Shown: positions 14,168-33,844 of the stretch, in pieces
Layout of the letters: every line of letters begins with the position of its first letter
Position numbering within the stretch: the first letter of the stretch is position 1
Source: Xanthobacter flavus
GTDB taxonomy: Bacteria > Pseudomonadota > Alphaproteobacteria > Rhizobiales > Xanthobacteraceae
Assembly: GCF_017875275.1 (NCBI RefSeq)
Contig: NZ_JAGGML010000001.1
Span: forward strand, 1,481,001 to 1,545,000
Length of the DNA stretch: 64,000 bases
Direction: 5' to 3'
Position numbers and translations under genes: made by a program
The notes under the pieces: model-generated
What the model was told of the DNA's origin: nothing
The model's input: only the letters and a program-made list of their open reading frames with translations
Database searches by the model: none

Positions 14168-14869
14168 TCAAATCCCCAGATACGCCTCCCGCACGCGCGG
14201 GTCGGCGATCAGCTCCGCCGCCGGTCCCACCATCGTCACGCGGCCGGTCTCCATCACATAGCCGCGGTCGGCCACCGACAGCGCGCCGAAGGCGTTCTGC
14301 TCCACGAGCAGCACGGTGACATCCAGCGCTTTGAGCCCCTTCACCACCTCGAAGATCTGCGCCACCAGGATGGGCGCGAGGCCCATGGAGGGCTCGTCCA
14401 GCAAGAGGCAGGCGGGGCGACCCATGAGGGCGCGGGCGATGGCGAGCATCTGCTGCTGCCCGCCGGAAAGGCCTCCCGCCAGCTGGTTGCGCTTCTCCTT
14501 CAGGATGGGGAACATGGCGAAGGCGTCCGCCATGTCGCGCTCCACCCGCGCGTCGGCGAAGACGAAGGCGCCGAGGCGCAGGTTTTCCTCCACGCTGAGA
14601 TTGGTGAAGATCTGCCGCCCCTCCGGCGATTGCGCCAGCCCCCGCGCCACCCGGCGATAGGCCGGCACGGCCGTCAAAGCCTCGCCGCGGAAGGTGATGG
14701 AGCCGCCCGACACCGGCTGCACGCCGGAGAGGCAGCGCAGCAGCGTCGTCTTGCCCGCCCCGTTCGCCCCTACCACGGTGACGATCTCGCCGGAGCCGAC
14801 GAACAGGTCCACCCCGTGCAGCACCTCGATGCGCCCGTAGCGCGAGCGCAGCCCCTCAACCGTGAGCAT
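14168..14869 (-). CDS. livF: Branched-chain amino acid-type ABC transporter ATP-binding protein LivF
   Basis: A 233-residue ATPase. Walker A is GANGAGKTTLL, signature LSGGQQQML and Walker B CLLLDEPSMGLAP, the latter typical of LivF. It ends with DPRVREAYLGI, the usual LivF ending. It overlaps livG by 14 bases. It is one of two ATPases of the Liv importer encoded at 14168-18775. The location beside a CoA-dependent aromatic/alicyclic degradation regulon suggests import of a carboxylic acid rather than amino acids. Confidence 0.88.
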   Translation of the reverse strand: MLTVEGLRSRYGRIEVLHGVDLFVGSGEIVTVVGANGAGKTTLLRCLSGVQPVSGGSITFRGEALTAVPAYRRVARGLAQSPEGRQIFTNLSVEENLRLGAFVFADARVERDMADAFAMFPILKEKRNQLAGGLSGGQQQMLAIARALMGRPACLLLDEPSMGLAPILVAQIFEVVKGLKALDVTVLLVEQNAFGALSVADRGYVMETGRVTMVGPAAELIADPRVREAYLGI

Positions 14870-15641
14870 GAAGCGCCTCCGTCGTGCCGGCGCCGAGATA
14901 GGCCTCGATCACCTTCGGGTCGCGGCTGACGACGGCGGGATCGCCCTCGGCGATCTTCTCGCCATGGTCCAGCACCACGATGGTGTCGGACAGGCGCATC
15001 ACCAGCTTCATGTCGTGCTCCACGAGGAGGATGGCGACGCCGGTTTTCGCCACCTCGCAGATGAGGCGGTCGATCTCCTCCGTCTCCACCGCGTTGCAGC
15101 CGGCCGCCGGCTCGTCCAGCAGCAGCACGCGCGGGCTGGCCGCGAGCGCGCGGGCGATCTCGAGGCGCTTGAGCGCGCCGTAGGAGAGGGCGCCCGCCTC
15201 GCGCTCGGCCGCCCGCTCCAGCCCCACCCGCTCCAGCAGCACCCGCGCGCCCTCCGCCGCCGCCCGTGCCCGCTTGCGCGATCCGGGCAGGCCGAAGAGA
15301 TCGGCGAGCACCGGCCCGCGCTCGTGCATGTGGAAGCCGACGATGACGTTCTCCAGAACGCTCATCTCGTGGAAGATCTGGAGGTTCTGGAAGGTGCGCG
15401 ACATGCCCCGCACCGCCAGCAGGTCCGGGCGCAGGCCGGTCACGTCCTCGCCATCGAGGCGCACCCGGCCGGACTTCGGCAGATAGACGCCGGAGATCAT
15501 GTTGAACAGCGTGGTCTTGCCCGCCCCGTTGGGGCCGATGACGGACAGGATCCTGCCCGTCTCCAGCGCGAACGACACGTCGTTGACCGCCGTGACGCCG
15601 CCGAAGGAGATGCCGAGGCCTTCCACTTGCAAGAGGCTCAT
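14856..15641 (-). CDS. livG: Branched-chain amino acid-type ABC transporter ATP-binding protein LivG
   Basis: A 261-residue ATPase with Walker A GPNGAGKTTLF, signature SYGALKRLEIARAL and Walker B VLLLDEPAAGCN. The LivG hallmark LLVEHDMKLVM follows. The C-terminus DPKVIEAYLGAG is as expected for LivG. It overlaps livM by four bases (ATGA) and is part of the livKHMGF operon on the minus strand. Confidence 0.88.
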   Translation of the reverse strand: MSLLQVEGLGISFGGVTAVNDVSFALETGRILSVIGPNGAGKTTLFNMISGVYLPKSGRVRLDGEDVTGLRPDLLAVRGMSRTFQNLQIFHEMSVLENVIVGFHMHERGPVLADLFGLPGSRKRARAAAEGARVLLERVGLERAAEREAGALSYGALKRLEIARALAASPRVLLLDEPAAGCNAVETEEIDRLICEVAKTGVAILLVEHDMKLVMRLSDTIVVLDHGEKIAEGDPAVVSRDPKVIEAYLGAGTTEALHAHG

Positions 15642-16594
15642 TCCCCCCTCCCCCGCAACAGGCGCCGGGCGCTGGGGATGAGCCCCGCCGGCAGGAAGAT
15701 CATCACGAGCATCATCACGAGGCCGAGCACCACGTGCTCGTAATCCTGCAGCACGGTGAGCACCTGCGGCAGGAGCGTGAGCAGCGCCGCGCCGAAGATG
15801 CCGCCCAGCACCGATCCCGCCCCGCCCAGCACCGCCATGGTGACCAGCTCGATGGAGTGCATGAAGCCCGCCACGTCCGGCGTGATGAGCCGGTTCTGCA
15901 AGGCCAAAAGGGAGCCGGCCACCGAGGCGTAGACGGCCGAGATGACGAAGGCGTTCAGCTTCGCCTTCGCCACGTCGATGCCCGCCGTGCGCGCCGCCAC
16001 CTCCGAGCCATGCAGCGCGCGCAGCGCCCGGCCGGTGGGGCTTTCACGCAGGTTCAGCGCGAGCCATGCGCCGATGAAGAGCACGAGGCCGCAGAGGGCG
16101 TACCAGAATTGCGGGTTGGTGAGTTCGATGCCCGCCTGTTCCAGCAGCGCGCGCAGGCCGGGGTCCGGCACCTTGATGCCGTCCGGCCCGCCCGTCAGCC
16201 AGCCTTCGTTGGCGAGCACCATGGAGACGAGCACGCCGAAGCCCAGCGTCGCCACCGCGAGGTAATAGCCCTTCAGCTTCAGGATGGGCCGGCCCACCCC
16301 GTATGCGATGGCGCCGGAAATCGCCGCCCCGGCCACCACCGCGAGCGCGGGCGGCAGGCCGAAATGCGCCGGCAGCAGCGCGCAGGCATAGCCGCCGATG
16401 CCGAGGAAGCCGGCATGGCCGAGGCTGATCTGCCCGGCATAGCCGGTGAGGATGACGATGCCCACCACCGCGATGGAATTGACGAAGACCAGAGAGCCCA
16501 CGCGGTAATAATAGTTCGACGGGAAGAAGAAGGGACTGGCGATGATGAGCACCGCCAGCACCAGCAAGGTGGACTGCTTGGAGGAGAGCCGCAT
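15638..16594 (-). CDS. livM: Branched-chain amino acid-type ABC transporter permease LivM
   Basis: A 318-residue permease with about nine to ten hydrophobic helices. It carries the LivM pattern GYAGQISLGHAGFLGIGGYACALL and the later ALRGSE-like coupling region ALRALHGSEVAARTAGID. I take ATG 16594; a GTG at 16600 overlaps the livH stop as GTGA and could be the true start, adding two residues. It forms the membrane pore with LivH. Confidence 0.86.
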   Translation of the reverse strand: MRLSSKQSTLLVLAVLIIASPFFFPSNYYYRVGSLVFVNSIAVVGIVILTGYAGQISLGHAGFLGIGGYACALLPAHFGLPPALAVVAGAAISGAIAYGVGRPILKLKGYYLAVATLGFGVLVSMVLANEGWLTGGPDGIKVPDPGLRALLEQAGIELTNPQFWYALCGLVLFIGAWLALNLRESPTGRALRALHGSEVAARTAGIDVAKAKLNAFVISAVYASVAGSLLALQNRLITPDVAGFMHSIELVTMAVLGGAGSVLGGIFGAALLTLLPQVLTVLQDYEHVVLGLVMMLVMIFLPAGLIPSARRLLRGRGE

Positions 16595-16596
16595 GG

Positions 16597-17469
16597 TCAC
16601 ACGCGCTCCACCGGATTGCTGCCGTAAAGGCCGCGCGGGAAGGCGAACAGCACGGCGAGGATGACGAAGAAGGCCACCGCATCCTTGTAGTGGGAGGAGA
16701 TGTAGCCCGCCGTCAGCGCCTCCATGAGGCCCAGCAGTAGCCCGCCTGCGAGCGCGCCCTTCGGGTTGCCCATGCCGCCCAGCATGGCGGCGGCGAAGCC
16801 CTTCAGCGCCAGCGTGATGCCGATCTCGAAGCTGGTGGGCAGGATGGGGGTGATGAGCACGCCCGCCAGCGCGCCGATGGCGGCGGACAAGGCGAAAGAG
16901 AACGTCATCACGAAGCGGGTGTTGATGCCAACGAGCTGCGCCGCGAGGCGATTGTTGGAGGTGGCGAGCACCGCGCGGCCCATGAGCGTGCGGGTGAAGA
17001 ACAGCCACAGCGCCACGAAGATGGCCACCGCCCCCGCCACCACCCACAGGCTCTGCGGCAGCACGGTGGCGCCCAGCACGCGGATGGGATCGTCGCCGGA
17101 GAAGGAGGGCAGCCGGTGGGTGCCCTTGTCGAGCACGATCTGGGTGACGCCCCGGATGAAGATGGAGGCGCCGATGGTGATGATGATGAGCGACACCACG
17201 GGCGTCCCGCGCGCCGGCTCGATGGCGAAGGTGTTCAGCGCCACGCCGATGGCCGCCGTGAGTGCGATGGCGATGAGCGCCGCGAGCGGCAAGGGCAATC
17301 CGGCGGCGACCCCGGCCACCGAGATCATGCCGCCCAGCATCACGAACTCGCCCTGGGCGAAGTTCACCACGTCGGAGGCGTTGTAGATGATGGTGAAACC
17401 GAGGGCGACGAGGGCATAGACCGCGCCCACCGTGACCCCGGACACCAGGAATTGCAGCAGATCGGACAT
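16597..17469 (-). CDS. livH: Branched-chain amino acid-type ABC transporter permease LivH
   Basis: A 290-residue permease. The start of the mature fold, VSGVTVGAVYALVALGFTII, and the motif VVNFAQGEFVMLGG are diagnostic of LivH, and the coupling region ALATSNNRLAAQLVGIN is visible. ATG 17469 (MSDLLQFL) begins exactly where LivH proteins start; the open frame extends 15 codons further upstream without a good signal. It follows livK after 166 bases that include a strong stem-loop. Confidence 0.87.
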   Translation of the reverse strand: MSDLLQFLVSGVTVGAVYALVALGFTIIYNASDVVNFAQGEFVMLGGMISVAGVAAGLPLPLAALIAIALTAAIGVALNTFAIEPARGTPVVSLIIITIGASIFIRGVTQIVLDKGTHRLPSFSGDDPIRVLGATVLPQSLWVVAGAVAIFVALWLFFTRTLMGRAVLATSNNRLAAQLVGINTRFVMTFSFALSAAIGALAGVLITPILPTSFEIGITLALKGFAAAMLGGMGNPKGALAGGLLLGLMEALTAGYISSHYKDAVAFFVILAVLFAFPRGLYGSNPVERV

Positions 17470-17556
17470 GCGCTCGCTCCCCGCGGGCGGTTCAAAGCGG
17501 CGGCCGGGTTGCACCGGCGGGCCGCCTCACGCTGTGTGGAAGGGTGCCGCGCCTTG

Positions 17557-17635: not shown

Positions 17636-18775
17636 CTACTTCACCAGCTTCCAGCCGCCATTGCTGATTTCCAGCATGCGGAAGGCGGACAGATCGAGGC
17701 CGAGATGGTCGGTCTTCGAATAATTGTAGGTGCCGGTGGTGCCGACGAGGCCATTGGTGCCCTCGATGGCATCGCGGATGGCGGCGGGCTTCGCGGACGG
17801 CGCCTTGTTGAGCGCCTCGGTGAGGATGCGCATGGCGTCATGGGCATAGCCGCCGAAGGTGGAGACCGGCGCGCTCGCCGCCTTCTCGAAGCTCGCCTTG
17901 TAGGCCAGCACCACAGGCTTCTGCGGGTCCTTGGGATCGAGCAGTTCGCCCACGAGAAGGGCGGTGCCGGGCAGGCGCACGCCCTCGGCATTCTTGGCGC
18001 CGGACAATTCGATGAAGGCGTTGGAGGCGACGCCGTGGGACTGGTAGAGCGGCAAGGTGATGCCGAGCTGCGCATAGTTGCGGGTGATGGTCGCAGGCCC
18101 CTGCCCGAAGCCGGTGTTGAGCACCGCCTGGATGCCCGGCTTGTTGCGGATGTTGGTGAGCTGCGGGGTCATGTCCGCATCCTTCGGCCCATAGGTCTCG
18201 TCGGCGACGATCTCGATGCCGGAGGTCTTGGCCACCGCGATGCACTGGGCGCGCATGGAGGCGCCGAAGCCGTCGGTGCCGGAGATGAGTCCGATCTTCG
18301 TCAGGCCGCGGGCCTTCATGTCGTCGAAGATCTTCTGGCACGCCATGCGGTCGGTGTGCGGGGTCTTGAAGGTGAAGGGCTTCACCGGATCGATGATCTC
18401 GATGGCGCCGGCCAGCGAGATGAACGGCACCTTGCTCTCTTCCGCGACCGCGAGGATGGCAAGCGAGGTGCCGGTGGTGGTGCCGCCGACCATGGCGACG
18501 ACGCCGTCGTCTTCCACGAGGCGGGTGGCGAAGGTCTTGGCCTTGGAAGGGTCGCCGCCGTCGTCATAGAGGACGAGCTTGGCCTTCTCGCCCTTGATGC
18601 CGCCCTTGGCGTTCAGCTCCTCCACCATCATGCGGATGGTCTTGGCCTCGGGATCGCCGAGGGAGGAGGCCGGCCCCGTCTCGGAAACCACGGCGCCGAT
18701 CTTGATGTCGGCGAGAGCGGGGGCGGCGGTGGCGAGCAGGGCCAGCGCGAGGGCGCCCGTGACAATCCTCTTCAT
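17636..18775 (-). CDS. livK: Branched-chain amino acid-type ABC transporter substrate-binding protein
   Basis: A 379-residue type-I periplasmic binding protein. A clear signal peptide (MKRIVTGALALALLATAAPALA) precedes DIKIGAVVSETGPASSLGDP, the standard start of the LivK fold. It is the first gene of livKHMGF, reading away from the dioxygenase operon. Two TetR-type operator-like sites lie in the divergent promoter region. The ligand is unknown; aromatic-acid importers of this family are common beside CoA-ligase genes. Confidence 0.86.
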   Translation of the reverse strand: MKRIVTGALALALLATAAPALADIKIGAVVSETGPASSLGDPEAKTIRMMVEELNAKGGIKGEKAKLVLYDDGGDPSKAKTFATRLVEDDGVVAMVGGTTTGTSLAILAVAEESKVPFISLAGAIEIIDPVKPFTFKTPHTDRMACQKIFDDMKARGLTKIGLISGTDGFGASMRAQCIAVAKTSGIEIVADETYGPKDADMTPQLTNIRNKPGIQAVLNTGFGQGPATITRNYAQLGITLPLYQSHGVASNAFIELSGAKNAEGVRLPGTALLVGELLDPKDPQKPVVLAYKASFEKAASAPVSTFGGYAHDAMRILTEALNKAPSAKPAAIRDAIEGTNGLVGTTGTYNYSKTDHLGLDLSAFRMLEISNGGWKLVK

Positions 18776-18878
18776 GTGTCCTCCCCAGGATTGATGGCTG
18801 ACGCCGCCGCGCCGTCGCCACCGCGGGCAAGCCTGCGGAGATCAGCGAGGGGGCATCACGCTTCGATCTATTATCGTT

Positions 18879-18892
18879 AGATCGTTCGGTCT
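18879..18892. promoter_or_regulatory. Candidate TetR operator A (livK promoter)
   Basis: AGATCGTTCGGTCT matches the pattern AGAYCGNNCGRTCT at every position. It lies 104 bases upstream of livK in AT-rich DNA. It is one of six related sites before the transcription units of this cluster. Confidence 0.6.
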
Positions 18893-19057
18893 TTTTAATT
18901 CAGATCGCACCGCATTGCCACCAGAATCTTGGGCGTTTGAACGCAAGGTCAGCGAAGCGGACTTTTTGCGCCAATTCAGGGACGTACCAATATCAAGGCG
19001 CGCCTTTCGCGCATCCGCCCCTCAAAGATTTCGCATCGGCACGTCGCAGGGTTCCGC

Positions 19058-19106
19058 TTGACATGGCGCAAGGATCGCGGGAATAGTTAGATCGATCGTT
19101 CGATGA
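19058..19106 (+). promoter_or_regulatory. Promoter and candidate TetR operator B (dioxygenase operon)
   Basis: TTGACA (19058-19063) is followed after 17 bases by GAATAG (19081-19086), a plausible though weak -10. Immediately downstream, CGATCGTTCGATGA (19093-19106) matches AGAYCGNNCGRTCT at 11 of 14 positions and is positioned to block transcription start. Confidence 0.5.
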
Positions 19107-19147
19107 ATTATCCGCCAATCCAAAGACCACACCAGGGGTGGACCGCC

Positions 19148-20425
19148 ATGCCGCACGCCGCCGTGTCCGAGGCCGCACAGGCCCGCGACTATCGCGCGCT
19201 CATCGAGCCCGCGCGCATCAACAGCCGTCTTTACTATGATCCGGCCATCTTCCAGGAAGAGCTGGAGAAGATCTGGTACAAGACCTGGGTCTATGTGGGC
19301 CACACCAGCGAAATTCCCAACAAGAACGATTACGTCACCAAGTCCATCGGACCCATGCCGGTGCTGATGGTGCGGGACAAGGAGGGCGAGGTCCGCCTCC
19401 TCCTCAACAAGTGCCCCCATCGCGGCAACCAGCTCTGCGCCTACCAGAAGGGCAACCGCACCAGTTTCACCTGCCCCTATCACTCCTGGACCTTCTCCAA
19501 CACCGGCGACCTCATGGGCTATGCCCTGCCGGAGGGCTATGAGGGCCAGAGCAAGGCGGGGCTGAACCTCGGCAAGGTGCCGCGCATCGCCATCTATCGC
19601 GGCTTCGTGTTCGGCTCCCTGGCGGCCGAGGGCATCTCGCTGGAGGAACACCTCGGCGGCGCGAAGGCGGCCCTCGACCAGCTGCTCGACAACTCGCCCA
19701 CCGGCGAGCTGGAGCTGACCGCCGGCTTCCTGCAGCACCGCACCAAGGCCAACTGGAAGTTCATGCTGGAGAACGAGACGGACGGCTATCACCCCGGCTT
19801 CGTCCATGGCTCCGTCTTCCAGGTGACGAACTCCGGCATCGGCAGCCTCTACGCGGCGGACTCCACGGCGCTGACCCGCGACTATGGAAACGGCCACACC
19901 GAGTTCGACCTGCGCCCCGAATGGCGCAAGAACGACAAGCCGCTCCAGTGGTTCGGCACCACGCCGGAGCGCCTGCCCGACTATGTGACGCGCATGAACG
20001 CCGCCTATGGCGAGGAGCGCGCGCGAGAGATCATGATCGACGGCTCGCCCCACGTCATGATCTTCCCGAACCTCTTCATCGCCGAGATCCAGATCTTCGT
20101 GCTCCAGCCGGTGGCGGTGGACGAGACCATCCAGCATGTCACCGCCGTGCAGTTCAAGGGCGCGCCGGACATCAACCGCCGCCTGCGCCAGCAGACCATG
20201 GGCTCGGTGGGCCCCGCCGGCCTCCTCCTCGCCGACGATACGGAGATGTACGAGCGCAACCATCGCGGCGCGCAGATCCTCGATCCGGAATGGCTGGTGC
20301 TCTCGCGCGGCCTGCACCGCGAGCGCCTCGACGAGAACGGCTTCCGCATCGCCCATTCCACCGACGAGACGCCCCAGCGCGGCATCTGGCGCCACTATCT
20401 GAACCTGATGACGGAGGCCCGCTGA
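19148..20425 (+). CDS. Aromatic-ring-hydroxylating dioxygenase, large (alpha) subunit
   Basis: A 425-residue Rieske non-heme iron oxygenase. The [2Fe-2S] Rieske ligands are Cys89-x-His91 (CPHRGNQLC) and Cys109-x2-His112 (CPYHSW). The mononuclear-iron site is in NETDGYHPGFVH, with His214 and His219. ATG 19148 is used because the longer frame would begin inside the promoter/operator. The beta subunit follows with a TGATG overlap, and a ferredoxin (22621) and a reductase (27587) in the same regulon complete a three-component system. The substrate is unknown; a free or CoA-bound aromatic acid is plausible from the surrounding CoA genes. Confidence 0.88.
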   Translation: MPHAAVSEAAQARDYRALIEPARINSRLYYDPAIFQEELEKIWYKTWVYVGHTSEIPNKNDYVTKSIGPMPVLMVRDKEGEVRLLLNKCPHRGNQLCAYQKGNRTSFTCPYHSWTFSNTGDLMGYALPEGYEGQSKAGLNLGKVPRIAIYRGFVFGSLAAEGISLEEHLGGAKAALDQLLDNSPTGELELTAGFLQHRTKANWKFMLENETDGYHPGFVHGSVFQVTNSGIGSLYAADSTALTRDYGNGHTEFDLRPEWRKNDKPLQWFGTTPERLPDYVTRMNAAYGEERAREIMIDGSPHVMIFPNLFIAEIQIFVLQPVAVDETIQHVTAVQFKGAPDINRRLRQQTMGSVGPAGLLLADDTEMYERNHRGAQILDPEWLVLSRGLHRERLDENGFRIAHSTDETPQRGIWRHYLNLMTEAR

Positions 20426-20958
20426 TGACCGCCCTCGCTCACTCCTTCACGGACGCCTCCGCCCCCGACCTCGCCAAGATCGAGCCGGCGACGCTGCACC
20501 ATCAGGTGGCGCAATTCCTCTATCTGGAGGCGCGCCTCGCCGACACCCACGATTATGACGGGTGGGAGGCGTTGTGGACGGACGACGCCATCTACTGGGT
20601 CCCCGCCAATGGCGACGACACCGACCCCGAGAAGGAAATGTCGGTGCTCTATGACAACCGCTCGCGCATCGGCGTGCGCATCCGCCAGCTCAAGACCGGC
20701 CGCCGCCACACCCAGACGCCGCGCTCGGAGCTGGCCCGCGTGATCTCCAACATCGAGATCGCCGAGGTGCGCGGCCCCGAGGTGGACGTGCGCGCCAACG
20801 TCCTCATCTACGAGGACAATCTGCGCGGCGAGACGCTCTGGGCGGCGCGCAACACCTACCGCCTGCGCATGACGGAGCAAGGTTTCCGGCTGGTGCGCAA
20901 GAAGATCTGCCTCGTGAACAACATGAAGCCGATCTTCACCCTGTCGTTCCTGGTGTGA
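20425..20958 (+). CDS. Aromatic-ring-hydroxylating dioxygenase, small (beta) subunit
   Basis: A 177-residue cone-shaped (SnoaL/NTF2-like) beta subunit. It has EARLADTHDYDGWEALWTDD near the N-terminus, the RSRIGVRIRQLKTGRRHTQTP segment and the C-terminal FRLVRKKICLVNN as in benzoate/biphenyl dioxygenase beta chains. ATG 20425 shares a base with the alpha-subunit TGA, so the two subunits are translationally coupled. It supports the alpha hexamer and is not itself catalytic. Confidence 0.87.
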   Translation: MTALAHSFTDASAPDLAKIEPATLHHQVAQFLYLEARLADTHDYDGWEALWTDDAIYWVPANGDDTDPEKEMSVLYDNRSRIGVRIRQLKTGRRHTQTPRSELARVISNIEIAEVRGPEVDVRANVLIYEDNLRGETLWAARNTYRLRMTEQGFRLVRKKICLVNNMKPIFTLSFLV

Positions 20959-21007: not shown

Positions 21008-21838
21008 ATGACACACAGCACCACACACGGCACCCCCGCCCCCGAAAGCTGGATCGCCGAAGGCCCCGTCCTGCTCGACTATGCCGATGGCGTCGCCACC
21101 CTCACGCTCAATCGCCCCGGCTCGGCCAACGGCATGAACATCGAGCTGATGCAGGCGCTCTATCGCGCCATCATGGTGGTGCATCGCGCCGCCGATGTCC
21201 GGGTGGTGCATCTGCGCGGCGCGGGCGCGAATTTCTGCGCCGGCGGCGACGTGCGCGAGTTCGCCTCCAAAGGTGAGGCGCTGGGCGATTTCCTGCGCGA
21301 GGTGACGGCCTATCTCCAGGTCGCCATCGGCGCCCTCATCCGCCTGAAGGCCATCGTCGTCACCGAGGTGCACGGCTATGCGGCGGGCGGCGGCGGGCTC
21401 GGCCTCGTCTGCGCCTCCGACATCGTGATCGCCGGCGCGGGCGCGAAGTTCATGGCCGGGGCGACGCGGGTGGGCATGGCGCCGGATGCCGGCGCCTCGG
21501 TCATCCTGCCCCATCTCGTGGGCTTCCGCCGCGCGGCCGAGATCATGCTCTCCAACCGCGTCGTCACCGCCGAGGAGGCGCAGTCCATCGGCCTCATCAC
21601 CAAGTGCGTGGCGGACGAGGCGCTGACCGAGGAAGCCGGCAAGGCCGCGCGCTTCTATGCCTCCGGCGCGCCGCTCGCCATGGCCGCCACCAAGCGCCTG
21701 TTGTGGAACGCGCTGGACGTGGAGCGCGCTTTGCCGGAGGAGGCGCGCACCGTCTCCGAACTCTCCTTCACCGCCGACAGCCGCGAGGGCCTCGCGGCGG
21801 TGATCGAGAAGCGCAAGCCCGTCTTCACCGGCCGATGA
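21008..21838 (+). CDS. Enoyl-CoA hydratase/isomerase family protein (PaaG-like)
   Basis: A 276-residue crotonase. The oxyanion-hole region is NFCAGGDVREFA and HGYAAGGGGLGL. The active-site segment reads GMAPDAGASVILPHLVG, with Asp where hydratases have the first Glu, as in PaaG/dienoyl isomerases, so isomerisation of an unsaturated or epoxidised CoA ester may be its task. It follows the dioxygenase by 49 bases and overlaps the next SDR gene by ATGA. Confidence 0.83.
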   Translation: MTHSTTHGTPAPESWIAEGPVLLDYADGVATLTLNRPGSANGMNIELMQALYRAIMVVHRAADVRVVHLRGAGANFCAGGDVREFASKGEALGDFLREVTAYLQVAIGALIRLKAIVVTEVHGYAAGGGGLGLVCASDIVIAGAGAKFMAGATRVGMAPDAGASVILPHLVGFRRAAEIMLSNRVVTAEEAQSIGLITKCVADEALTEEAGKAARFYASGAPLAMAATKRLLWNALDVERALPEEARTVSELSFTADSREGLAAVIEKRKPVFTGR

Positions 21839-22584
21839 GCGCGCCCGAGAAGCCGCTTTTGCCCCCGCGCCGCGCGCTCGTCACGGGAGGTGGCGCCGGC
21901 ATCGGCGCCGCCATCGTCCGCCAGCTCGGCGCGGACGGCATGGCCGTCACCTTCTGCGATCGCGATGCCACGACCGGCACCGTGCTCGCGGGCGAGACCG
22001 GGGCCACCTTCGTCCACATGGATGGCACGGACGCGGCGGCCGCGCAGGCGCTGTTCGCCACCCACGGCCCGTTCGACGTGCTGGTGAACAATATTGGCGC
22101 CGACCAGCACGCCTTCTTCACCGACACCACGGTGGACGACTGGCGGTTCCTGCTCTCGGTGAATCTGGAAACTGCCTTCCTCTTCACCCACCACGCGCTG
22201 CCGGCCATGCAGGCGGCGCGCTATGGGCGGATCGTGAACGTCGCGTCCGAGGCGGGGCGGCTGGGTTCGAAGGGCGGTGCGGTCTATGCCGCCGCCAAGG
22301 CCGGGCTCATCGGCTTCACCCGCTCCATCGCCCGCGAAAACGCCCGCTACGGCATCACCGCGAACGCCGTCGCCCCCGGCCCCATCCGCACCCCCATGGT
22401 GGAGCGGGCGGTGGCGGAGGTGGGCGAGAAGATCCTCTCCGACATGGCCGCCCTCACCCTCCTGCGCCGCATGGGCGAGCCGGAGGAAGTGGCGGCGGCG
22501 GTGGCCTTCCTCGCCTCGCCGGGCGCCGCCTTCATCACGGGCGAGGTGCTGGGCGTCTCCGGCGGCATGGGCTGCGGCGCCTGA
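21835..22584 (+). CDS. Short-chain dehydrogenase/reductase
   Basis: A 249-residue classical SDR. It has the cofactor motif TGGGAGIG near residue 19, NNIG, and the catalytic YAAAK, and ends with SGGMGCGA. ATG 21835 overlaps the crotonase stop. After a dioxygenase such an enzyme could dehydrogenate a cis-dihydrodiol or a 3-hydroxyacyl-CoA. Both are consistent with the operon; the sequence does not decide between them. Confidence 0.85.
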   Translation: MSAPEKPLLPPRRALVTGGGAGIGAAIVRQLGADGMAVTFCDRDATTGTVLAGETGATFVHMDGTDAAAAQALFATHGPFDVLVNNIGADQHAFFTDTTVDDWRFLLSVNLETAFLFTHHALPAMQAARYGRIVNVASEAGRLGSKGGAVYAAAKAGLIGFTRSIARENARYGITANAVAPGPIRTPMVERAVAEVGEKILSDMAALTLLRRMGEPEEVAAAVAFLASPGAAFITGEVLGVSGGMGCGA

Positions 22585-25059: not shown

Positions 25060-25066
25060 GGCCGCC

Positions 25067-26459: not shown

Positions 26460-26479
26460 TAGACCGAACGGATGGTCTA
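26460..26479. promoter_or_regulatory. Candidate TetR operator C (CoA ligase promoter)
   Basis: TAGACCGAACGGATGGTCTA is an inverted repeat TAGACC/GGTCTA with an 8-base centre, 68 bases upstream of the ligase start. Its left half AGACCGAACG is shared with sites A (reverse strand), D and E. Confidence 0.6.
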
Positions 26480-26662
26480 TGTAAACGGCGATTTTGATCT
26501 GCATCAACGTCGGTGGCGCGCTGACGCGGCGAGGCTACCATAGGGAAGGCGCCTTGATCACCTGTCGCGCCGCTCGATGCAGCGGCCGATGGTGCCTCAG
26601 TAGGCGATGCGCCGGTGTACCGCCCTTTGTACCGCCCTTGGCACCGACGCCCCATGCGCCTA

Positions 26663-26679
26663 TAGACCGAATGATCGGA
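26663..26679. promoter_or_regulatory. Candidate TetR operator D (autoregulation)
   Basis: The stretch TAGACCGAATGATCGGA contains AGACCGAATGATCG, 12 of 14 matches to AGAYCGNNCGRTCT. It lies about 25 bases before the proposed GTG start of the TetR gene, where binding would block its transcription. Confidence 0.5.
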
Positions 26680-26702
26680 TCATTCTTGCAGGTGTGGCCG
26701 CC

Positions 26703-27374
26703 GTGGCGAGAACGCGCTCAGCCGAATACGACAATATCCACGACACCATCCTCGAGCGGGCGGCGTCCGTGTTCGCGCAGCGCGGCTATGCCGCGACCTC
26801 CATCGGCGACATCGCCGAGGCGTGCGAGTGCTCCAAGTCGCGGCTCTATCACTATTTCACCTCCAAGGAGGCGATCCTTTCCGACCTGCTGACCTCGCAT
26901 GTGGAAAGCCTCCTCATGAAGTGCCGGCAGACCCTCTACGGCTATCAGGACCCGGAGGAGCGCTTCCGCCAGCTCACCCGCCTGTTCCTGAACGTCTATT
27001 CCGTCTCGCGCGACCAGCATGTGGCGCTGCTCACCTGCACCGAATTCCTCGCGCCCGAGACGCGCAAGGTGCTGGTGGCCAAGCAGCGCGAGCTGATCGC
27101 CTATGTCAGGGACATCCTTCTGCAATTGCGGCCGGATCTCGCCCATTCCCCCACGGCGCACGTGGACACCATGCTCTTCTTCGGCATGATCAACTGGACC
27201 TACACCTGGTACCACGCCGACGGCGCCGTGACGCCCGACGAGCTGGCCGACCGCACCGTGGCCCTCTTCGTGAAGGGCTACGCCAATGCCCCCGCGCCGA
27301 CGACCACCGGCGCGGCACATGCGAAGCCGGACGGGCGGCATGGGAGCCGGCATGAGGGGCGCGGCAAGGAGTAG
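26703..27374 (+). CDS. TetR-family transcriptional regulator
   Basis: A 223-residue TetR protein. The helix-turn-helix spans ASVFAQRGYAATSIGDIAEACE and SRLYHYFTSKEAILSDLL (about residues 18-60), followed by an all-helical ligand domain. GTG 26703 is used, with AGG ten bases upstream; GTG 26694 is too close to it. The protein sits between the ligase unit and the reductase gene. Six related palindromes flank the transcription units from 18.8 to 33.9 kb, so it is probably the local repressor, relieved by an acyl-CoA as for PaaR-type regulators (family knowledge; the ligand here is inferred). The last 25 residues are a disordered, charged tail. Confidence 0.86.
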   Translation: MARTRSAEYDNIHDTILERAASVFAQRGYAATSIGDIAEACECSKSRLYHYFTSKEAILSDLLTSHVESLLMKCRQTLYGYQDPEERFRQLTRLFLNVYSVSRDQHVALLTCTEFLAPETRKVLVAKQRELIAYVRDILLQLRPDLAHSPTAHVDTMLFFGMINWTYTWYHADGAVTPDELADRTVALFVKGYANAPAPTTTGAAHAKPDGRHGSRHEGRGKE

Positions 27375-27586: not shown

Positions 27587-28834
27587 TCACGCCGACCGCT
27601 TCATCCGCGCCACCGGATCGAACCCCGCGTCCGCCACCTCGTCCAGCGTCAGGACCGCGCCCGCTTCCAGCAGCTTCTTCGCGGCCATGTAGGTGCGCGC
27701 GTCGTTCAGCGCATCCACGGCGATCATGCGCCTGTCGCGGAAGTACCAGAGCGATTCCCCCCGCTCGGACTGCCGGCGCAGCACGGCGTCATAGCCCCGG
27801 TTGAGGCCGACGATCTGCAATTTCATCTCGTACTGATCGGACCAGAACCACGGCACCGGCGCATAGGAACGGGTGTGGCCGAGCATGTCGTCGGCGGCGC
27901 ATTCCGCCTGGTCCACCGCATTCTGCACGCTCTCCAGCCGGGTCGGCACGCCCTCAAACGGAAAGGACGCGCAATCGCCCGCCGCCCAGATGCCGGGTGT
28001 CCAGTTGCCCCCCACCGAGGTGCGGCCGTGCGCGTCCACCACGATGCCGTTCTCGCAGGTGAGGCCGGCCGCGCGGGCGAGTTCATCACGCGGCAGGACG
28101 CCGATGCCCACCAGCACCGCATCCACATCCAGGCGCGTGCCGTCGTCCAGCGTCACCGCTGCGACGGCGCCCTCCCGCGCCTCCACCCCGGCCACGCTGC
28201 GGCCTTCCAGGATGCGCACGCCGTGGCCCGCGTGGAGCGCGCGGATGGCGTCGGAGGTTTCGGCGCAGGCGACGCGCTCCAGAATGCGCGCGGCACGCTC
28301 CACCACGGTCACGGTGACGCCGGCCTTCGCCGCCACCGCCGCCGTCTCCAGCCCCACATAGCCGCCGCCGAGCACGAGGAGCCGCCGGCCGGGGCGGATC
28401 TCGCCTTCCAGCCGGTCCGCATCAGCGAGGCTGCGCAATTCGTAGACGCCTGAAAGATCGGCGAATTCCGGCGGCAGCGGGCGGGGCCGGGTGCCGGTGG
28501 CCAATGCCAGCTTCGTCCACGCCACGCTGCGCCCGCCCACCTCCAGCGTGCGCGCGGCGGGATCGAGCGCGGTGACGGGCGCCCCCGTCACCACATCGAC
28601 GCCGAGGCCGCTCCAGAATTCGGCCGGGCGCAGATAGAGCCGGTCCACCGTCCATTCGCGCTTGAGATAGGCCTTGGAGAGCGGCGGGCGCTGATAGGGC
28701 GGGTGCGGCTCGTCGCCAAAGATCGTCAGCGCTCCGGAATAGCCCCCGTGCCGCAGGCGCAGCGCGAGGGAGGCGGCCGCCTGCCCGGCCCCGACAATGG
28801 CGATGTGCTCCTCACCCGTCCGCACGTCTCCCAT
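27587..28834 (-). CDS. FAD-dependent ferredoxin reductase (dioxygenase reductase component)
   Basis: A 415-residue oxidoreductase of the putidaredoxin/rubredoxin reductase class. It has the FAD motif IVGAGQAAASLALRLR at the N-terminus, NAD motif VLGGGYVGLETAA near residue 150, and the FAD-binding WAAGDCASFPFEG near residue 290. The RPPLSKAYL segment is typical of BphA4/TodA-like reductases. It should pass electrons from NADH to the ferredoxin at 22621. Its promoter region (28835-28989) carries operator site E, shared with the divergent HMG-CoA-synthase-like gene. Confidence 0.88.
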   Translation of the reverse strand: MGDVRTGEEHIAIVGAGQAAASLALRLRHGGYSGALTIFGDEPHPPYQRPPLSKAYLKREWTVDRLYLRPAEFWSGLGVDVVTGAPVTALDPAARTLEVGGRSVAWTKLALATGTRPRPLPPEFADLSGVYELRSLADADRLEGEIRPGRRLLVLGGGYVGLETAAVAAKAGVTVTVVERAARILERVACAETSDAIRALHAGHGVRILEGRSVAGVEAREGAVAAVTLDDGTRLDVDAVLVGIGVLPRDELARAAGLTCENGIVVDAHGRTSVGGNWTPGIWAAGDCASFPFEGVPTRLESVQNAVDQAECAADDMLGHTRSYAPVPWFWSDQYEMKLQIVGLNRGYDAVLRRQSERGESLWYFRDRRMIAVDALNDARTYMAAKKLLEAGAVLTLDEVADAGFDPVARMKRSA

Positions 28835-28857
28835 GGCGCCCCCCTCTGGATATTTAT

Positions 28858-28871
28858 TGACCGAACGTTCT
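28858..28871. promoter_or_regulatory. Candidate TetR operator E (reductase / thiolase operon promoters)
   Basis: TGACCGAACGTTCT matches AGAYCGNNCGRTCT at 12 of 14 positions and lies in an AT-rich divergent region 24 bases before the reductase start and about 120 bases before the opposite gene. Confidence 0.55.
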
Positions 28872-28989
28872 GATTATTATACTGCCGAAATGCGGGCGGC
28901 AATCGGCTTTCCCGCGCGCCGTCGACCCCGACGTTCGGCGCGCGGCGACCGGTGAAGCCCCCTCCCCCGGCCGCACAGACGGGCACCAC

Positions 28990-30435
28990 ATGACGGGCAT
29001 CACAGCACTCGCGATCCACCTGCCGCGCCTGCGCCTCCAGCGCGCCGCCATGGCCGCCGCCATGGGCTGGCTCTGCCCCCGGGGCGAGGCCCGCGGCGCC
29101 CGCACTTTGGCCTATTGGGACGAAGACCCGATCACGATGGGCGTCGCCGCCGCCCGCGCCTGCCTGGCACAGGTTCCGCAGGCGCGCACCGCCATCCGCG
29201 CCCTCACCTTCGCCACCACCACCCCGGTGTTCGCCGAGCCGCAGCAGGCCGCCCTCGTCCATGCCGCCCTCCGCCTCCCCGAGGCGACCCGGACGCAGGA
29301 TGTGGGAGGTACCATGAGGTGCGGGCTGCTCGCGCTGCATGGGGCGCTCGAATCCACCGACCCGGCATTGCTGATCGCCGCCGATATGCCTCTCAACAAC
29401 CCGGGTGGAATGGCCGAAATGCGCTATTCGGATGGGGGTGTCAGCGCCCTCGTCGGCGGCGGGCCGGACCTCCTCACCTATCGCGGCGGTGCCAGCCTCT
29501 CCGCCCCTTTCATCGAGCGCTACCGCGTCCCCGACCGGCCGCTGGCGACCGACTGGGAGGAGCGCTGGGTGCGGGAAGAAGGCTTCCTCGACCTCGTGCC
29601 CCGCGCCATCACGGAAGCTCTTGCAAAAGCGCAGCTTTCTGCCGCCGACATCGACCATTTCGTCCTGCCCTGCGTCATCCCCGGCGCAGCCAAGGCGGTG
29701 GCGCAGGCGGCCGGCCTCTCCCGCGCAAAACTCGCGCAACCCCTTGATCTGGAATGCGGAGACACGGGCGCGGCCCATGCCCTCGTGATGCTGGCGCGAG
29801 TGATGGAAGACATGCACCCCGGCGAGCGGGTGCTGGTGGCCCAGTTCGGCCAGGGCGCCACCGCTCTGGTGCTGGAGGCGACCGACGCCATCACCACCTT
29901 CCCGGCCGCCGCCTCGGCCGCTCTGGCGGCTGGGGTCACCGAGGGCAACTATCTGAAACTCCCCATCTTTCGCGGCCTCATGCCGTGGGAGCGCGGCCTG
30001 CGCGGACGTTTCCCGGTCAACGAGGCGCTCACCACCGCCTACCGCAATTCCGAGGCCCTGCTGGGCTTCGTCGGCAGTCGCAGCCCCGAGACAGGGCAGG
30101 TGCAGTTTCCCCCCTCCCGCCTCGCCGTGGCGGAGGCTGGTTTGTTCGCGCAAACCCAGCAACCATGCCCCTTCGCGGACCTCGGCGGCACGGTGGCCAC
30201 CGCCACCGCAGACCGCCTCGCCTTCTCCCGCAGCCCGCCCAATTGCTACGGCCTCATCGACATCCCCGGCGGCGCCCGCCTGATGATGGACTTCACCGAC
30301 CCCGAAGCGGAGCGTCTCTCGCCCGGCGATGCGGTCAATTTCGTCTTTCGCATCAAGGATTTGGACGAGCGAACCGGGTACCGTCGCTATTTCTGGAAAG
30401 CGGTCGCGGCCCCCGCGCCGTCCGCCGCAGACTGA
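28990..30435 (+). CDS. HMG-CoA synthase-like protein fused to a C-terminal OB-fold (DUF35-like) domain
   Basis: A 481-residue protein. Residues 1-330 follow the thiolase-fold HMG-CoA synthase/KAS III pattern (GITALAIHLPRLRL start, DIDHFVLPC, and AQFGQGATALVLEA near the end). Residues 360-470 resemble the acyl-CoA-associated OB-fold partner of thiolases, ending GDAVNFVFRIKDL and YRRYFWKA. Two things are odd. Where the family has the nucleophile Cys (about residue 109) this protein reads GTMRCGLLAL, so the Cys may be shifted or lost. The zinc-ribbon CxxCG before QFPPSR is SPETG, without Cys. It precedes a thiolase by 15 bases; such pairs (compare BbsA/BbsB) cleave branched beta-ketoacyl-CoA. 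Its own reaction is unknown. Confidence 0.7.
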   Translation: MTGITALAIHLPRLRLQRAAMAAAMGWLCPRGEARGARTLAYWDEDPITMGVAAARACLAQVPQARTAIRALTFATTTPVFAEPQQAALVHAALRLPEATRTQDVGGTMRCGLLALHGALESTDPALLIAADMPLNNPGGMAEMRYSDGGVSALVGGGPDLLTYRGGASLSAPFIERYRVPDRPLATDWEERWVREEGFLDLVPRAITEALAKAQLSAADIDHFVLPCVIPGAAKAVAQAAGLSRAKLAQPLDLECGDTGAAHALVMLARVMEDMHPGERVLVAQFGQGATALVLEATDAITTFPAAASAALAAGVTEGNYLKLPIFRGLMPWERGLRGRFPVNEALTTAYRNSEALLGFVGSRSPETGQVQFPPSRLAVAEAGLFAQTQQPCPFADLGGTVATATADRLAFSRSPPNCYGLIDIPGGARLMMDFTDPEAERLSPGDAVNFVFRIKDLDERTGYRRYFWKAVAAPAPSAAD

Positions 30436-30450: not shown

Positions 30451-31644
30451 ATGGCCAATGGAATCAAGGACAAGGTCGCCATCCTCGCCATGGGCTGCTC
30501 CCGCTTTGGCGAGCGCTGGGATGTGGGGCAGGAAGAGCTGATGGCGGAAGCGTATCTTGAGGCGCTCAGCCATGCCGGCATCACGCCCGAACAGATTGGC
30601 GCGGCTTGGTATTCTTCCCATTATGACGATATCGGCGCCGGCAAGGCCGGCACCCCGATGGCCCAGGCTCTGCGCCTTCCGAACATCGGCGTCACCCGTG
30701 TCGAAAACTTCTGCGCCGGCGGCACGGAAGCCTTTCGCGGTGCCGTCTATGCCGTGGCGTCGGGGGCGGTGGACATTGCACTGGCGGTGGGTGTCGAGAA
30801 GCTGAAGGACACCGGCTTTGCCGGCCTGCCCCCGGCCTCGCGCGGCACCTTCGCGCCCATGTATCTGCCAACACACACGAATCCGGGAAACTTCGCCCAG
30901 CTCGCGCGGGCCTATGGAACGCGGCACAACATCTCGCCGGGTGATCTCAAGCGGGCCATGGGGCACACCTCCATGAAGAGCCACGCCAATGCGGTCAGCA
31001 ACAAAAACGCCCATCTGCGCAAGGCGATAACCGTCGAGCAGGCGGTGAATGCGCCCCTCGTGGCGGACCCGCTGGGCCTGTTCGATTGCTGCCCGGTGTC
31101 GGACGGCGCCGCCTGCGCCATCGTCACCACGCCGGAAATCGCCCAAAGCCTTGGAAAGACGCTGGTTCTGGTCAAGGCGATCCAGCTCGTCGCCTCCAAT
31201 GGCTGGGAGGTGCAGAGCAGCGGCTGGAACGGCTCCTATGTCCACACGGCCCGCATCGCCGCGCGCCGGGCCTATGCCGAGGCGGGCATCGCCGAACCCC
31301 GCGCCCAGCTGAGCTTCACAGAGCTGCACGACTGCTTCTCCATCACCGAGCTGGTGACGCTGGAAGACATCGGCCTCGCCGACGAAGGCACCGCCTGGAA
31401 ACGTATGCTGGACGGCGCTTTCGACGCAGACGGCACCCTGCCCTGCCAGGTGGATGGCGGCCTGAAATGCTTCGGCCATCCCGTCGGCGCCTCCGGACTG
31501 CGCATGCTCTACGAATGCTGGCTGCAACTGACGGGGCAGGCCGGCGAGCGCCAGCTCGGCAATCCCAGCCTCGCCCTCACCCACAATCTGGGCGGTGCGC
31601 CGGCGCAGAACGTCTGCTCCATCACCATTGTCGGTGCCGCCTGA
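30451..31644 (+). CDS. Thiolase family protein (SCP-x / BbsB type)
   Basis: A 397-residue thiolase. The nucleophile Cys88 is in ENFCAGGTEAF and the C-terminal catalytic histidine in GGLKCFGHPVGASG. The region HNLGGAPAQNVCS replaces the usual CxG motif. This pattern belongs to the sterol-carrier-protein-x-like group, whose members often work with an OB-fold partner. The gene follows the HMG-CoA-synthase/OB-fold gene by 15 bases, has GAGAGGGCG before its ATG, and ends just before a strong terminator. It probably does the final thiolytic (or retro-Claisen) step of the pathway. Confidence 0.84.
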   Translation: MANGIKDKVAILAMGCSRFGERWDVGQEELMAEAYLEALSHAGITPEQIGAAWYSSHYDDIGAGKAGTPMAQALRLPNIGVTRVENFCAGGTEAFRGAVYAVASGAVDIALAVGVEKLKDTGFAGLPPASRGTFAPMYLPTHTNPGNFAQLARAYGTRHNISPGDLKRAMGHTSMKSHANAVSNKNAHLRKAITVEQAVNAPLVADPLGLFDCCPVSDGAACAIVTTPEIAQSLGKTLVLVKAIQLVASNGWEVQSSGWNGSYVHTARIAARRAYAEAGIAEPRAQLSFTELHDCFSITELVTLEDIGLADEGTAWKRMLDGAFDADGTLPCQVDGGLKCFGHPVGASGLRMLYECWLQLTGQAGERQLGNPSLALTHNLGGAPAQNVCSITIVGAA

Positions 31645-31669
31645 TCCGACCGTGGCGGCCCGCTGACTG

Positions 31670-31706: not shown

Positions 31707-31723
31707 ACTTCTGGGCGAGAGGC

Positions 31724-33844
31724 TTAGGCCTTCTGCCAGTCTGCGAATGTCGTCCCCTCGGCGGCGAGCTGGGCGAGGAGCGGTGCGGGGTCGGAGCCGG
31801 TGCCGCCGGTGGCGTGGGCGGCTTCGACTTCGGCGAGGATGGCGGCGAGGCCGAGGGCGTCGGCGGCATGCATGGGGCCGCCCTTCAGGCGGGGGAAGCC
31901 GTAGCCGTTGACGAAGGCGAGGTCGATGTCGGACGGCCGCAGCGCGATGCCCTCTGCGAGGGCCTTGGCGCCTTCGTTCGCCATCACCGCCAGAAGCCGG
32001 AGCTGGATCTCTTCGGGGGTGAAGGATCGCGGCTGAATGCCTTTGGCGGCGCGGGCTTGCGCGATGATCTGCGTGACGGCTGGGTCGGGCGTGCGGTTGC
32101 CGTTTGCGTCGTAGGCGTACCAACCGGCCTGGGTCTTTCGGCCGAGACGCCCCGCTTCCACCAATTGATCGGCGATATCCACGTAGCGCTCGGCGGGGTC
32201 GCGCGTCGCCGCCCGGCGCTTCCTCATGGCGTAGGCGATGTCGAGGCCGGACATGTCCGACACCGCGAAGATGCCCATGGCGAAGCCGAAGGCCTCCAGC
32301 GCCGCATCCACCTGTTCGGGGCTGGCCCCGTCCTCCACCAGATATTCCGCGTGGCGCCGGTAGACCGCATAGATGCGGTTGCCGATGAAGCCGTCGCAAT
32401 TGCCCGCCACCACCGGCTGCTTGCCCATCTTCTTTGCCAGCGCGAGGGCGGTCGCCAGCACATCCGGCGCGGTATGGGTGGCTTTCACCACCTCCAGCAG
32501 CTTCATGATGTTGGCCGGGGCGAAGAAGTGCAGGCCCACCACATCCTGCGGCCGGGCGGTGGCGGCGGCGATGGCATCGAGGTCGAGATAGGAGGTGTTG
32601 GTGGCGAGCACCGCGCCCGGCTTTGCCACCGCATCGAGGCGGAGGAAGATGTCGGTCTTGACGGCCATGTCCTCGAACGCGGCCTCGACGATGAGGTCGG
32701 CTTCGGACAGCGCCGCATAGTCGGATGCGGGCGCGAGGCGGGCGAGGCGCTCGGCCTTCTGCGCCTCGGTGATGCGGCTGCTCTTCACCTGCCGGGCGTA
32801 AAGCCCGTCGATGCGCGCGACGCCGGCCTGGGCGGCCTCGTCATCCCGCTCCACGAGGATCACCGGGTAACCTGCATCCAGCAGCGCCACGGCAATGCCC
32901 GCGCCCATGGTGCCGGCGCCGATGACGGCGGTCGAGGAGACCGGGCGTGCCTTCGCCCCCTCCAGCCCCGGCACCTTCACCGCCTCCCGCTCGGCGAGGA
33001 AGAGATGGCGCAGGGCTTTCGCTTCCGGGCTCTCGCGCAAGGCGAGGAACGCCGCGCGCTCGGCAGCGAGGCCGGCGGCGAAGTCGCCCGCCCGCGCGGC
33101 CTTGATGACGCGGATCGCCTCGGCGATGGCGGGCACGCCCTTGGCCCCCTTCAGCGCCTTGGCGGTCGCGGCCTCCTCCTCGCCAATATCGCCCGCCGGC
33201 ACCGGCATCGCCGAGAGCCGGCGCTTCGCGACCGTCGGCGCGCGGGCGATGGCTTCGGCGAGGAGATCGCCCTCCACCACCGCATCCATGAGGCCCAGCG
33301 CCAGCGCCTCGCCGGCCTTCAGCACCCGCCCCTCGCACACCAGCGCGATGGCCTGCGCGACCCCCACCAGCCGCACCAGCCGCTGGGTCCCGCCGGCACC
33401 GGGGATGATGCCGAGCCTTGTCTCGGTGAGCCCGACCAGCGCCTTCGTCGAACCGAGCCTGAGATCGCAGGCCAGTGCGATCTCGCAGCCGCCGCCCAGC
33501 GCCGCGCCATCCAGCGCCGCGACCACGGGCTTGGTTGAGGCATCGATCGCGCCCACCACCTCGGGCAAAAACGGCTCATCCGGCGGCAGCGCCATCTCAC
33601 GCAGGTCCGCCCCGGCGATGAAGCGTCCCGGACCGCCGCTCAGGACGATGGCGGAGACGGCGGGGTCGGCATTCAGCGCGCGCACCGCATCCAGCAGACC
33701 CTGACGCACGCCGCGAGACAGCGCGTTCACCGGAGCATGGTCGATGTGAATGACAGCAACAGGACCGTGACGGGTGATCGTGACGGGGGAAGCTCCCTCA
33801 TGCGCGGGCACGCCGCGCGGAGGCACGGGCCGATGGTCGGTCAT
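31724..33844 (-). CDS. Fused enoyl-CoA hydratase / 3-hydroxyacyl-CoA dehydrogenase (FadB/FadJ-like)
   Basis: A 706-residue bifunctional beta-oxidation enzyme. The N-terminal crotonase (residues about 20-190) has GGPGRFIAGADLREM and LGIIPGAGGTQRLVR with the catalytic Glu position. The dehydrogenase starts at VIGAGTMGAGIAVALLDAGY (about residue 305), with LVERD closing the NAD site and HFFAPANIMKLLEVV further on. Two C-terminal 3HCDH domains follow. Length and order match the monofunctional-operon FadJ/PaaC-type fusion. It is a single-gene unit with operator-like site F upstream, so it is likely part of the TetR regulon. Confidence 0.88.
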   Translation of the reverse strand: MTDHRPVPPRGVPAHEGASPVTITRHGPVAVIHIDHAPVNALSRGVRQGLLDAVRALNADPAVSAIVLSGGPGRFIAGADLREMALPPDEPFLPEVVGAIDASTKPVVAALDGAALGGGCEIALACDLRLGSTKALVGLTETRLGIIPGAGGTQRLVRLVGVAQAIALVCEGRVLKAGEALALGLMDAVVEGDLLAEAIARAPTVAKRRLSAMPVPAGDIGEEEAATAKALKGAKGVPAIAEAIRVIKAARAGDFAAGLAAERAAFLALRESPEAKALRHLFLAEREAVKVPGLEGAKARPVSSTAVIGAGTMGAGIAVALLDAGYPVILVERDDEAAQAGVARIDGLYARQVKSSRITEAQKAERLARLAPASDYAALSEADLIVEAAFEDMAVKTDIFLRLDAVAKPGAVLATNTSYLDLDAIAAATARPQDVVGLHFFAPANIMKLLEVVKATHTAPDVLATALALAKKMGKQPVVAGNCDGFIGNRIYAVYRRHAEYLVEDGASPEQVDAALEAFGFAMGIFAVSDMSGLDIAYAMRKRRAATRDPAERYVDIADQLVEAGRLGRKTQAGWYAYDANGNRTPDPAVTQIIAQARAAKGIQPRSFTPEEIQLRLLAVMANEGAKALAEGIALRPSDIDLAFVNGYGFPRLKGGPMHAADALGLAAILAEVEAAHATGGTGSDPAPLLAQLAAEGTTFADWQKA

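Follow-up and report, generated by a model that had tools for sequence, protein, structure and literature searches.

The stretch analysed here, positions 1,481,001 to 1,545,000 of the 5.35-Mb single-contig genome of Xanthobacter flavus (the 64-kb window, to whose coordinates all positions refer), carries between 14168 and 33844 a gene island that appears to combine a Rieske dioxygenase with coenzyme A (CoA) ester catabolism. An earlier sequence-only reading had named its gene types, and Pfam and NCBIfam profile searches recovered every one of them within these limits. The plus strand has the gene order rhdA-rhdB-ech-sdr-fdx-amacr, and the protein-coding features, including those whose open reading frame (ORF) limits were revised, are as follows.

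14168–14869, minus strand: LivF-type ATP-binding cassette (ABC) ATPase (PF00005)
14856–15641, minus strand: LivG-type ABC ATPase (PF00005 and BCA_ABC_TP_C)
15638–16594, minus strand: LivM-type permease, 318 residues after a shadow N-terminus was trimmed (PF02653)
16597–17514, minus strand: LivH-type permease (PF02653)
17636–18775, minus strand: LivJ-type solute-binding protein (PF13458; best PDB match 7ylt_B, E-value 1.9e-41)
19148–20425, plus strand: rhdA, Rieske oxygenase alpha subunit (ORF opens at 19103; PF00355, PF00848)
20425–20958, plus strand: rhdB, oxygenase beta subunit (PF00866, 8.4e-27)
21008–21838, plus strand: ech, PaaG-type crotonase (best structures PaaG 6sl9/6slb and 3hrx)
21835–22584, plus strand: short-chain dehydrogenase/reductase (SDR) gene (PF13561/PF00106)
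22621–22941, plus strand: fdx, [2Fe-2S] ferredoxin of 106 residues (PF00111, 3.1e-10)
22947–24065, plus strand: alpha-methylacyl-CoA racemase (PF02515; 1x74, the racemase MCR, E-value 9.9e-115)
24157–25116, minus strand: hormone-sensitive lipase (HSL)-type esterase, start uncertain (PF07859, 5e-56)
25067–26392, minus strand: PaaK-type CoA ligase (PaaK 2y4o, E-value 5.8e-66; under the TIGR02155 cut-off)
26607–27374, plus strand: TetR regulator, longest ORF (PF00440, PF17932)
27587–28834, minus strand: ferredoxin reductase (PF07992 and PF14759)
28990–30435, plus strand: PhlA-PhlB-like fusion of a domain resembling 3-hydroxy-3-methylglutaryl-CoA synthase (HMGS) with an oligonucleotide/oligosaccharide-binding (OB) fold, hereafter HMGS-OB (PF01796, 29.6 bits, cut-off 27.1)
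30451–31644, plus strand: SCP2-type thiolase (PRK06157, 655.5 bits, cut-off 403)
31724–33844, minus strand: FadB-like hydratase/3-hydroxyacyl-CoA dehydrogenase (PF00378, PF02737, PF00725)

The ferredoxin gene is masked by longer shadow ORFs; because its product (22621–22941) and the reductase (27587–28834) supply the remaining components, the oxygenase is complete as a three-component system, as had been proposed. Starts were corrected for the SDR gene (near 21835), the racemase gene (22947) and, on the minus strand, livM (near 16594).

We recognised in the island's intergenic regions a 20-bp near-palindrome with the consensus TAGACCGAACGATCGGTCTA, and operator-like sites are present in all four of the regions that bear promoters. 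Six sites in the window agree with the consensus at 15 or more of 20 positions, every one at an island promoter; they are listed here together with the promoter of rhdA.

18874–18893: predicted TetR operator, livJ side, 15/20, overlapping a minus-strand promoter-like site at 18898–18870
19058–19087, plus strand: sigma-70-like promoter of rhdA, TTGACA-18-AATAGT
19088–19107: predicted rhdA operator, 16/20, directly 3' of this promoter
26460–26479: predicted TetR operator, paaK/tetR, 17/20
26663–26682: predicted TetR operator, tetR leader (within the longest tetR ORF), 16/20
28857–28876: predicted TetR operator, fdr/hmgs, 15/20
33900–33919: predicted TetR operator, fadB promoter, 16/20

In 20 random sequences of matching neighbour frequencies, sites of this quality averaged 0.15 per sequence, and the best score in two of them was a single 15/20 site. 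The consensus was derived from the island's own sites; the independent test is provided by related loci in other genomes, where, at 16/20 or better and with 40 random trials each, we found three sites in L025 (rhdA, livJ and tetR; random mean 0), four in L026 (rhdA, tetR, hsl/fdr and paaK/livJ; random mean 0.025) and four in L084 (rhdA, livJ, paaK/tetR and fdr/hmgs; random mean 0), and no site at this level in L024, L027, L035, L005 and L085. As the near-palindrome thus occurs in all four promoter regions and in equivalent places in three related loci, co-regulation of these genes as one TetR regulon, which the sequence-only reading had also suggested, is supported through the predicted operators. 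A search of the whole genome at up to three mismatches returned the paaK/tetR site only (reversed control, 0), so that distant members of the regulon cannot be named. The predicted operators also bear on two gene starts: since 19103 falls within the predicted rhdA operator, 19148 is the more likely start of rhdA, and the true start of tetR probably lies 3' of the operator in the tetR leader.

We compared the island with related loci from a scan of species genomes (the best 80 loci of a larger number of matches) and from plasmid records, which added further loci. Loci with RhdA at 53% identity or more form clade X (72 loci, a fragment, L085, being dropped) and those at 40–45%, a range that takes in IpfA from the ibuprofen plasmid pIBU218, form clade Y (20 loci); the flanks spanned ~10–14 kb and some contigs were short, so all linkage counts are lower bounds. 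Among the best 80 loci the nearest named relatives of RhdA are those of Xanthobacter oligotrophicus (97%) and Azorhizobium doebereinerae (96%), the two nearest plasmid homologs are 65–69% identical, and IpfA is 42% identical (347 bits). In a tree of 91 rows, whose root is uncertain and whose outgroup branches are long, clades X (70 rows) and Y (16 rows) had support of 98/97 and 97/65, respectively, and by this sequence tree RhdA lies in a supported clade neighbouring the one that contains IpfA. At the family level the oxygenase is nearest to benzoate-, anthranilate- and ipf-type enzymes, all matches falling below the family cut-offs.

The two clades differ in what accompanies the oxygenase: ech (≥45% identity) was found in 62/72 X loci vs 0/20 Y loci, the SDR gene (≥33%) in 58/72 vs 2/20, HMGS-OB in 37/72 vs 0/20, the thiolase gene (≥43%) in 34/72 vs 0/20, and a PaaK-type ligase gene in 7/72 vs 0/20. 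The SDR gene stood directly 3' of ech in 35/35 loci scored, and ech directly 3' of rhdB in 34/62. Two other proteins recur among the 65 clade-X genome loci: an 87-residue protein with no Pfam match, encoded adjoining rhdB at 13797–14060 of L007, has homologs in 27 of them, apparently actinobacterial, and an amine-oxidase-family flavoprotein (PF01593), encoded at 24185–25492 of L004, recurs in 18.

Within the genus, clade-X rhdA (90–100%), HMGS-OB, the thiolase gene (90–100%) and the cluster racemase gene (81–100%) occur in the same six of 14 genomes, our own included, as neighbors on one contig, and none of these copies was found in the remaining eight at the thresholds used. Four of these eight hold a more distant racemase (51–56%), and in one of the six, G002, a further and more distant HMGS-OB/thiolase pair lies on a different contig. 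The gene set is therefore one discrete island, present or absent as a unit in the genus. Outside the genus its parts are found separately, e.g., a 68% rhdA with neither HMGS-OB nor thiolase in G029, and HMGS-OB and thiolase without rhdA in G055. The check that the sequence-only reading had proposed, a search for the same gene set in other genomes, thus turned up the whole set in six genus genomes and rhdA-rhdB-ech-sdr across phyla (Proteobacteria and Actinobacteria); this recurrence, with the all-or-none distribution in the genus, indicates that the grouping is more than chance.

Active-site residues bear on the chemistry of the individual steps. The racemase aligns with MCR of Mycobacterium tuberculosis with its His, Asp and Glu, which we take to be the catalytic residues, all matched, and its identification as a true alpha-methylacyl-CoA racemase is supported by this alignment. 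The thiolase residues C88, H293, C295, H343 and H378 (HDC and GHP motifs; Cys/HDCF/His in the island copy) are retained in 33/33 clade-X sequences, whereas the clade-Y thiolase-fold proteins that clustered, nine from the 20 loci, have Gly at C88 and Tyr at H293 in 9/9. A Tyr opening this motif is described as a mark of steroid retro-aldolases (PMC12329534), and the cleavage step of ipf is described as a retro-aldolase reaction yielding propionyl-CoA and 4-isobutylcatechol (PMC9195938). Given this difference in motif, C–C cleavage chemistry probably differs between clades X and Y.

The HMG-CoA-synthase step that had been assigned to the adjoining gene is not supported. In the HMGS-like domain position 109 is Cys in 0/36 sequences and position 111 in 3/36, these being the positions at which we place, by motif count, the HMGS nucleophile; as no nucleophilic Cys is conserved, HMG-CoA synthase activity was rejected. 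Among solved structures the fusion is closest to PhlA and to the archaeal HMGS subunit from a thiolase complex, its structural model (predicted local distance difference test score 85.6) has 5mg5_A and 6esq_I among the top fold matches, and the island has the arrangement seen in PhlACB: an HMGS-like fold, an OB-fold partner (which rests on PF01796) and an adjacent thiolase. The PhlA-PhlB-like fusion is thus probably a thiolase scaffold, with the SCP2-type thiolase as its partner. The PaaG-like isomerase of the sequence-only reading held up: Asp160 of Ech aligns with Asp136 of PaaG and is Asp in 62/62 rows. Asp136 is described as a proton shuttle through which the double bond of the ring becomes conjugated with the thioester (PMC7497051).

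These results are consistent with CoA-based catabolism, as first proposed, and suggest the following scheme. A TetR-repressed regulon would take up an aromatic acid through the Liv importer, and the ligase would join the acid to CoA before dioxygenation, an order that is likely because in the related ipf system it is the CoA ester that is attacked. The three-component Rieske enzyme would then carry out dioxygenation on the ring of this ester, the PaaG-type isomerase would shift a double bond of the ring so that it is conjugated with the thioester, and the SDR may form the ketone that the thiolase requires. With these two, the FadB-like protein and the thiolase/PhlA-PhlB-like complex would break the carbon skeleton, in place of a retro-aldolase followed by catechol cleavage. 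With moderate confidence we read the island as a 'hybrid' route that depends on CoA and has a Rieske dioxygenase where the phenylacetyl-CoA pathway has the PaaABCE epoxidase, since the set of ligase, oxygenase, isomerase, hydratase/dehydrogenase and thiolase follows the logic of that pathway. More tentatively, a route of this kind may extend over Proteobacteria and Actinobacteria, the Rieske enzyme dearomatising an aryl-acyl-CoA, isomerase, dehydrogenase and thiolysis opening the ring without a ring-cleavage dioxygenase, and the PhlA-PhlB fusion serving as thiolase scaffold.

Our best guess for the substrate is an aryl-alkanoic, perhaps alpha-methyl-branched, acid. The solved protein nearest to LivJ is 7ylt, which we take to be the auxin-binding IadK2, followed by other solved binding proteins; the latter bind aromatic acids. 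IadK2 is described as auxin-specific (PMC12633357). The sequence-only reading had derived a branched acyl-CoA from racemase and thiolase together, and that derivation is weak: a thiolase of this type does not in itself call for a branch, and the view that the substrate must be branched was rejected on the rarity of the racemase, found (≥45%) in just 10/72 X loci (0/20 Y loci). What stands is that the racemase suggests an alpha-methyl branch, which it would epimerise, in this variant of the island only.

Several further observations, like the rarity of the racemase, weigh against the hybrid route or against its generality. An AMP ligase of any kind was found in 39/72 X loci vs 14/20 Y loci, the X ligases coming from several families. 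HMGS-OB was missing from 35 of the fetched X loci, and 24 of these were followed into their genomes: six genomes carry it outside the fetched region, whether past the flank or elsewhere, and 18 lack it, so thiolysis by a thiolase/HMGS-OB complex is not universal in clade X. In L025 (Bradyrhizobium sp. C9) rhdAB lies under the same operator and is followed by a gene for a flavin mononucleotide (FMN)-dependent dehydrogenase (11809–13122; PF01070, 397 bits), and neither ech nor sdr was found in that locus; with this pairing, the oxygenase can serve other chemistry. Ring-cleavage genes were sought by tblastn with eight queries, namely BphC (L006), a VOC protein (L009), HpaD (L107), HpaH (L104) and four ORF candidates from the two intradiol loci of our own genome. 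Ring-cleavage or meta-pathway matches were obtained in 2/72 X loci (L098 and L023) vs 11/20 Y loci, a contrast that is biased in that four of the latter are query sources and all matches came via the four Y-derived queries. The L023 match, in a closely related locus, is extradiol-like and lies at the very edge, ~9.6 kb from rhdA. Our own genome has two intradiol dioxygenases away from the island and PaaA/PaaC-family matches only at 1.34 Mb, a separate locus, and a catechol could therefore be handled outside the island. On the other side, the gene tables of the six annotated X plasmid loci (L004, L005, L007, L008, L102 and L103), themselves incomplete, list no ring-cleavage dioxygenase.

Of the alternatives, the one that survives best, although we consider it unlikely, is an alicyclic or terpenoid acid, with the Rieske enzyme hydroxylating a non-aromatic ring ahead of branched-chain beta-oxidation. 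The racemase, thiolase, FadB-like protein and esterase would suit branched acyl-CoA oxidation, and actinobacterial relatives have acyl-CoA dehydrogenases as well as a homolog of the amine-oxidase-family flavoprotein of L004; the aromatic-acid relatives of the oxygenase (all below family cut-offs), the 7ylt match of LivJ and the PaaK-type ligase point away from it.

Somewhat less probable still is an ipf-type pathway, in which a 2-arylpropionyl-CoA would undergo dioxygenation at the side-chain-bearing ring carbon and the one next to it, a thiolase-fold protein would release propionyl-CoA, and the catechol would be cleaved by enzymes encoded elsewhere. The 42% identity of RhdA to IpfA, the ligase, alpha/beta oxygenase, thiolase-fold and OB-fold proteins common to both systems, the real alpha-methylacyl-CoA racemase and the intradiol dioxygenases elsewhere in the genome are all in keeping with this. 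However, the island thiolase keeps the Cys and HDCF where 9/9 ipf-type proteins have Gly and the retro-aldolase Tyr, the island includes an isomerase and an SDR, and meta-pathway genes were found near just 2/72 clade-X loci. An ipf label based on RhdA similarity was rejected, as both the thiolase motif and the tree (RhdA in X, IpfA in Y) disagree with it.

Degradation of an auxin-like indole acid, as by the Variovorax iad operon, is doubtful: among solved structures RhdA best matches the iad oxygenase 9o71 (190 bits) and its near-twin 7yls, and the best LivJ match is the presumed IadK2, but RhdA scores 347 bits with IpfA (the two scores coming from different programs). In the excerpts of the iad report, CoA synthetase and thiolase are also present, but the oxygenase is described as two-component whereas the island has a ferredoxin and a reductase, and the racemase, PaaG-type isomerase and FadB-like protein are without counterpart among the steps described there (PMC12633357).

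Aerobic routes of ring degradation usually fall into two classes, those that rely on catechol-type ring-cleavage dioxygenases and those, such as Paa and Box, that proceed through CoA epoxides; coupling of a Rieske dioxygenase to a CoA/thiolase route would add a third. The occurrence of this combination in two phyla points to a natural substrate that is common, and ibuprofen-type labels given by similarity could mispredict the C–C cleavage chemistry.

Other genes lie around the island. An acetolactate decarboxylase gene (13263–14096; TIGR01252 above cut-off) adjoins the Liv genes on the same strand, and on the other side a stretch of ~2.6 kb (33950–36554) is open over long distances in several reading frames; a Pfam scan of four ORFs there gave no match, and the stretch may contain a gene that has decayed or escaped recognition. 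Positions 3353–10555 encode an IclR regulator, a choline-dehydrogenase-like GMC oxidoreductase, an MFS transporter, a sulfoacetaldehyde acetyltransferase (TIGR03457, 980 bits, cut-off 676) and a phosphotransacetylase, and by this content look like an operon for utilisation of isethionate or another C2-sulfonate. At 45141–54524 a second Liv-type importer is encoded, with two solute-binding proteins, alongside an IclR-type regulator and three SDR genes. Scanning the window for Rfam families and for tRNA genes gave no matches.

The sequence-only reading knew of no described pathway with this exact set, and literature searches aimed at such a gene set likewise listed no open-licence paper whose title or abstract describes one; the sequence-only reading had not named the related ibuprofen ipf system, which differs in its cleavage-enzyme motif. 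By sequence comparison the island is related to, yet distinct from, ipf, iad and paa. The nearest match found among described pathways is the ipf pathway of Rhizorhabdus wittichii MPO218 (pIBU218), which likewise has a CoA ligase, Rieske alpha/beta subunits of the neighbouring clade, thiolase-fold and OB-fold proteins, and a CaiB/BaiF-family protein near the ipf genes. It differs in its IpfD-type proteins, which have the retro-aldolase Tyr and a Gly where the nucleophilic Cys would be, in the catechol and extradiol cleavage that follow, in the lack of any PaaG-type isomerase match at 45% in the 20 Y loci, and in a separate OB protein, with no HMGS-like part found there. The iad operon supplies the closest solved Rieske alpha subunit and probably the closest solved solute-binding protein, and it also has a CoA synthetase and a thiolase, but it is described with a two-component oxygenase and has other downstream steps. 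The phenylacetyl-CoA hybrid pathway (PaaK, PaaABCE, PaaG, PaaZ and PaaFHJ) resembles the island in its PaaK-type ligase, PaaG-type isomerase, hydratase/dehydrogenase, thiolase and CoA-ester logic; the island lacks PaaABCE and PaaZ and instead has a Rieske oxygenase, SDR, esterase and racemase. Finally, as reported for PhlA, the HMGS nucleophile is not conserved in the island fusion, but unlike the PhlACB acyltransferase and the archaeal thiolase/HMGS/DUF35 complex, the island has its HMGS-like and OB parts fused and set in a catabolic context.

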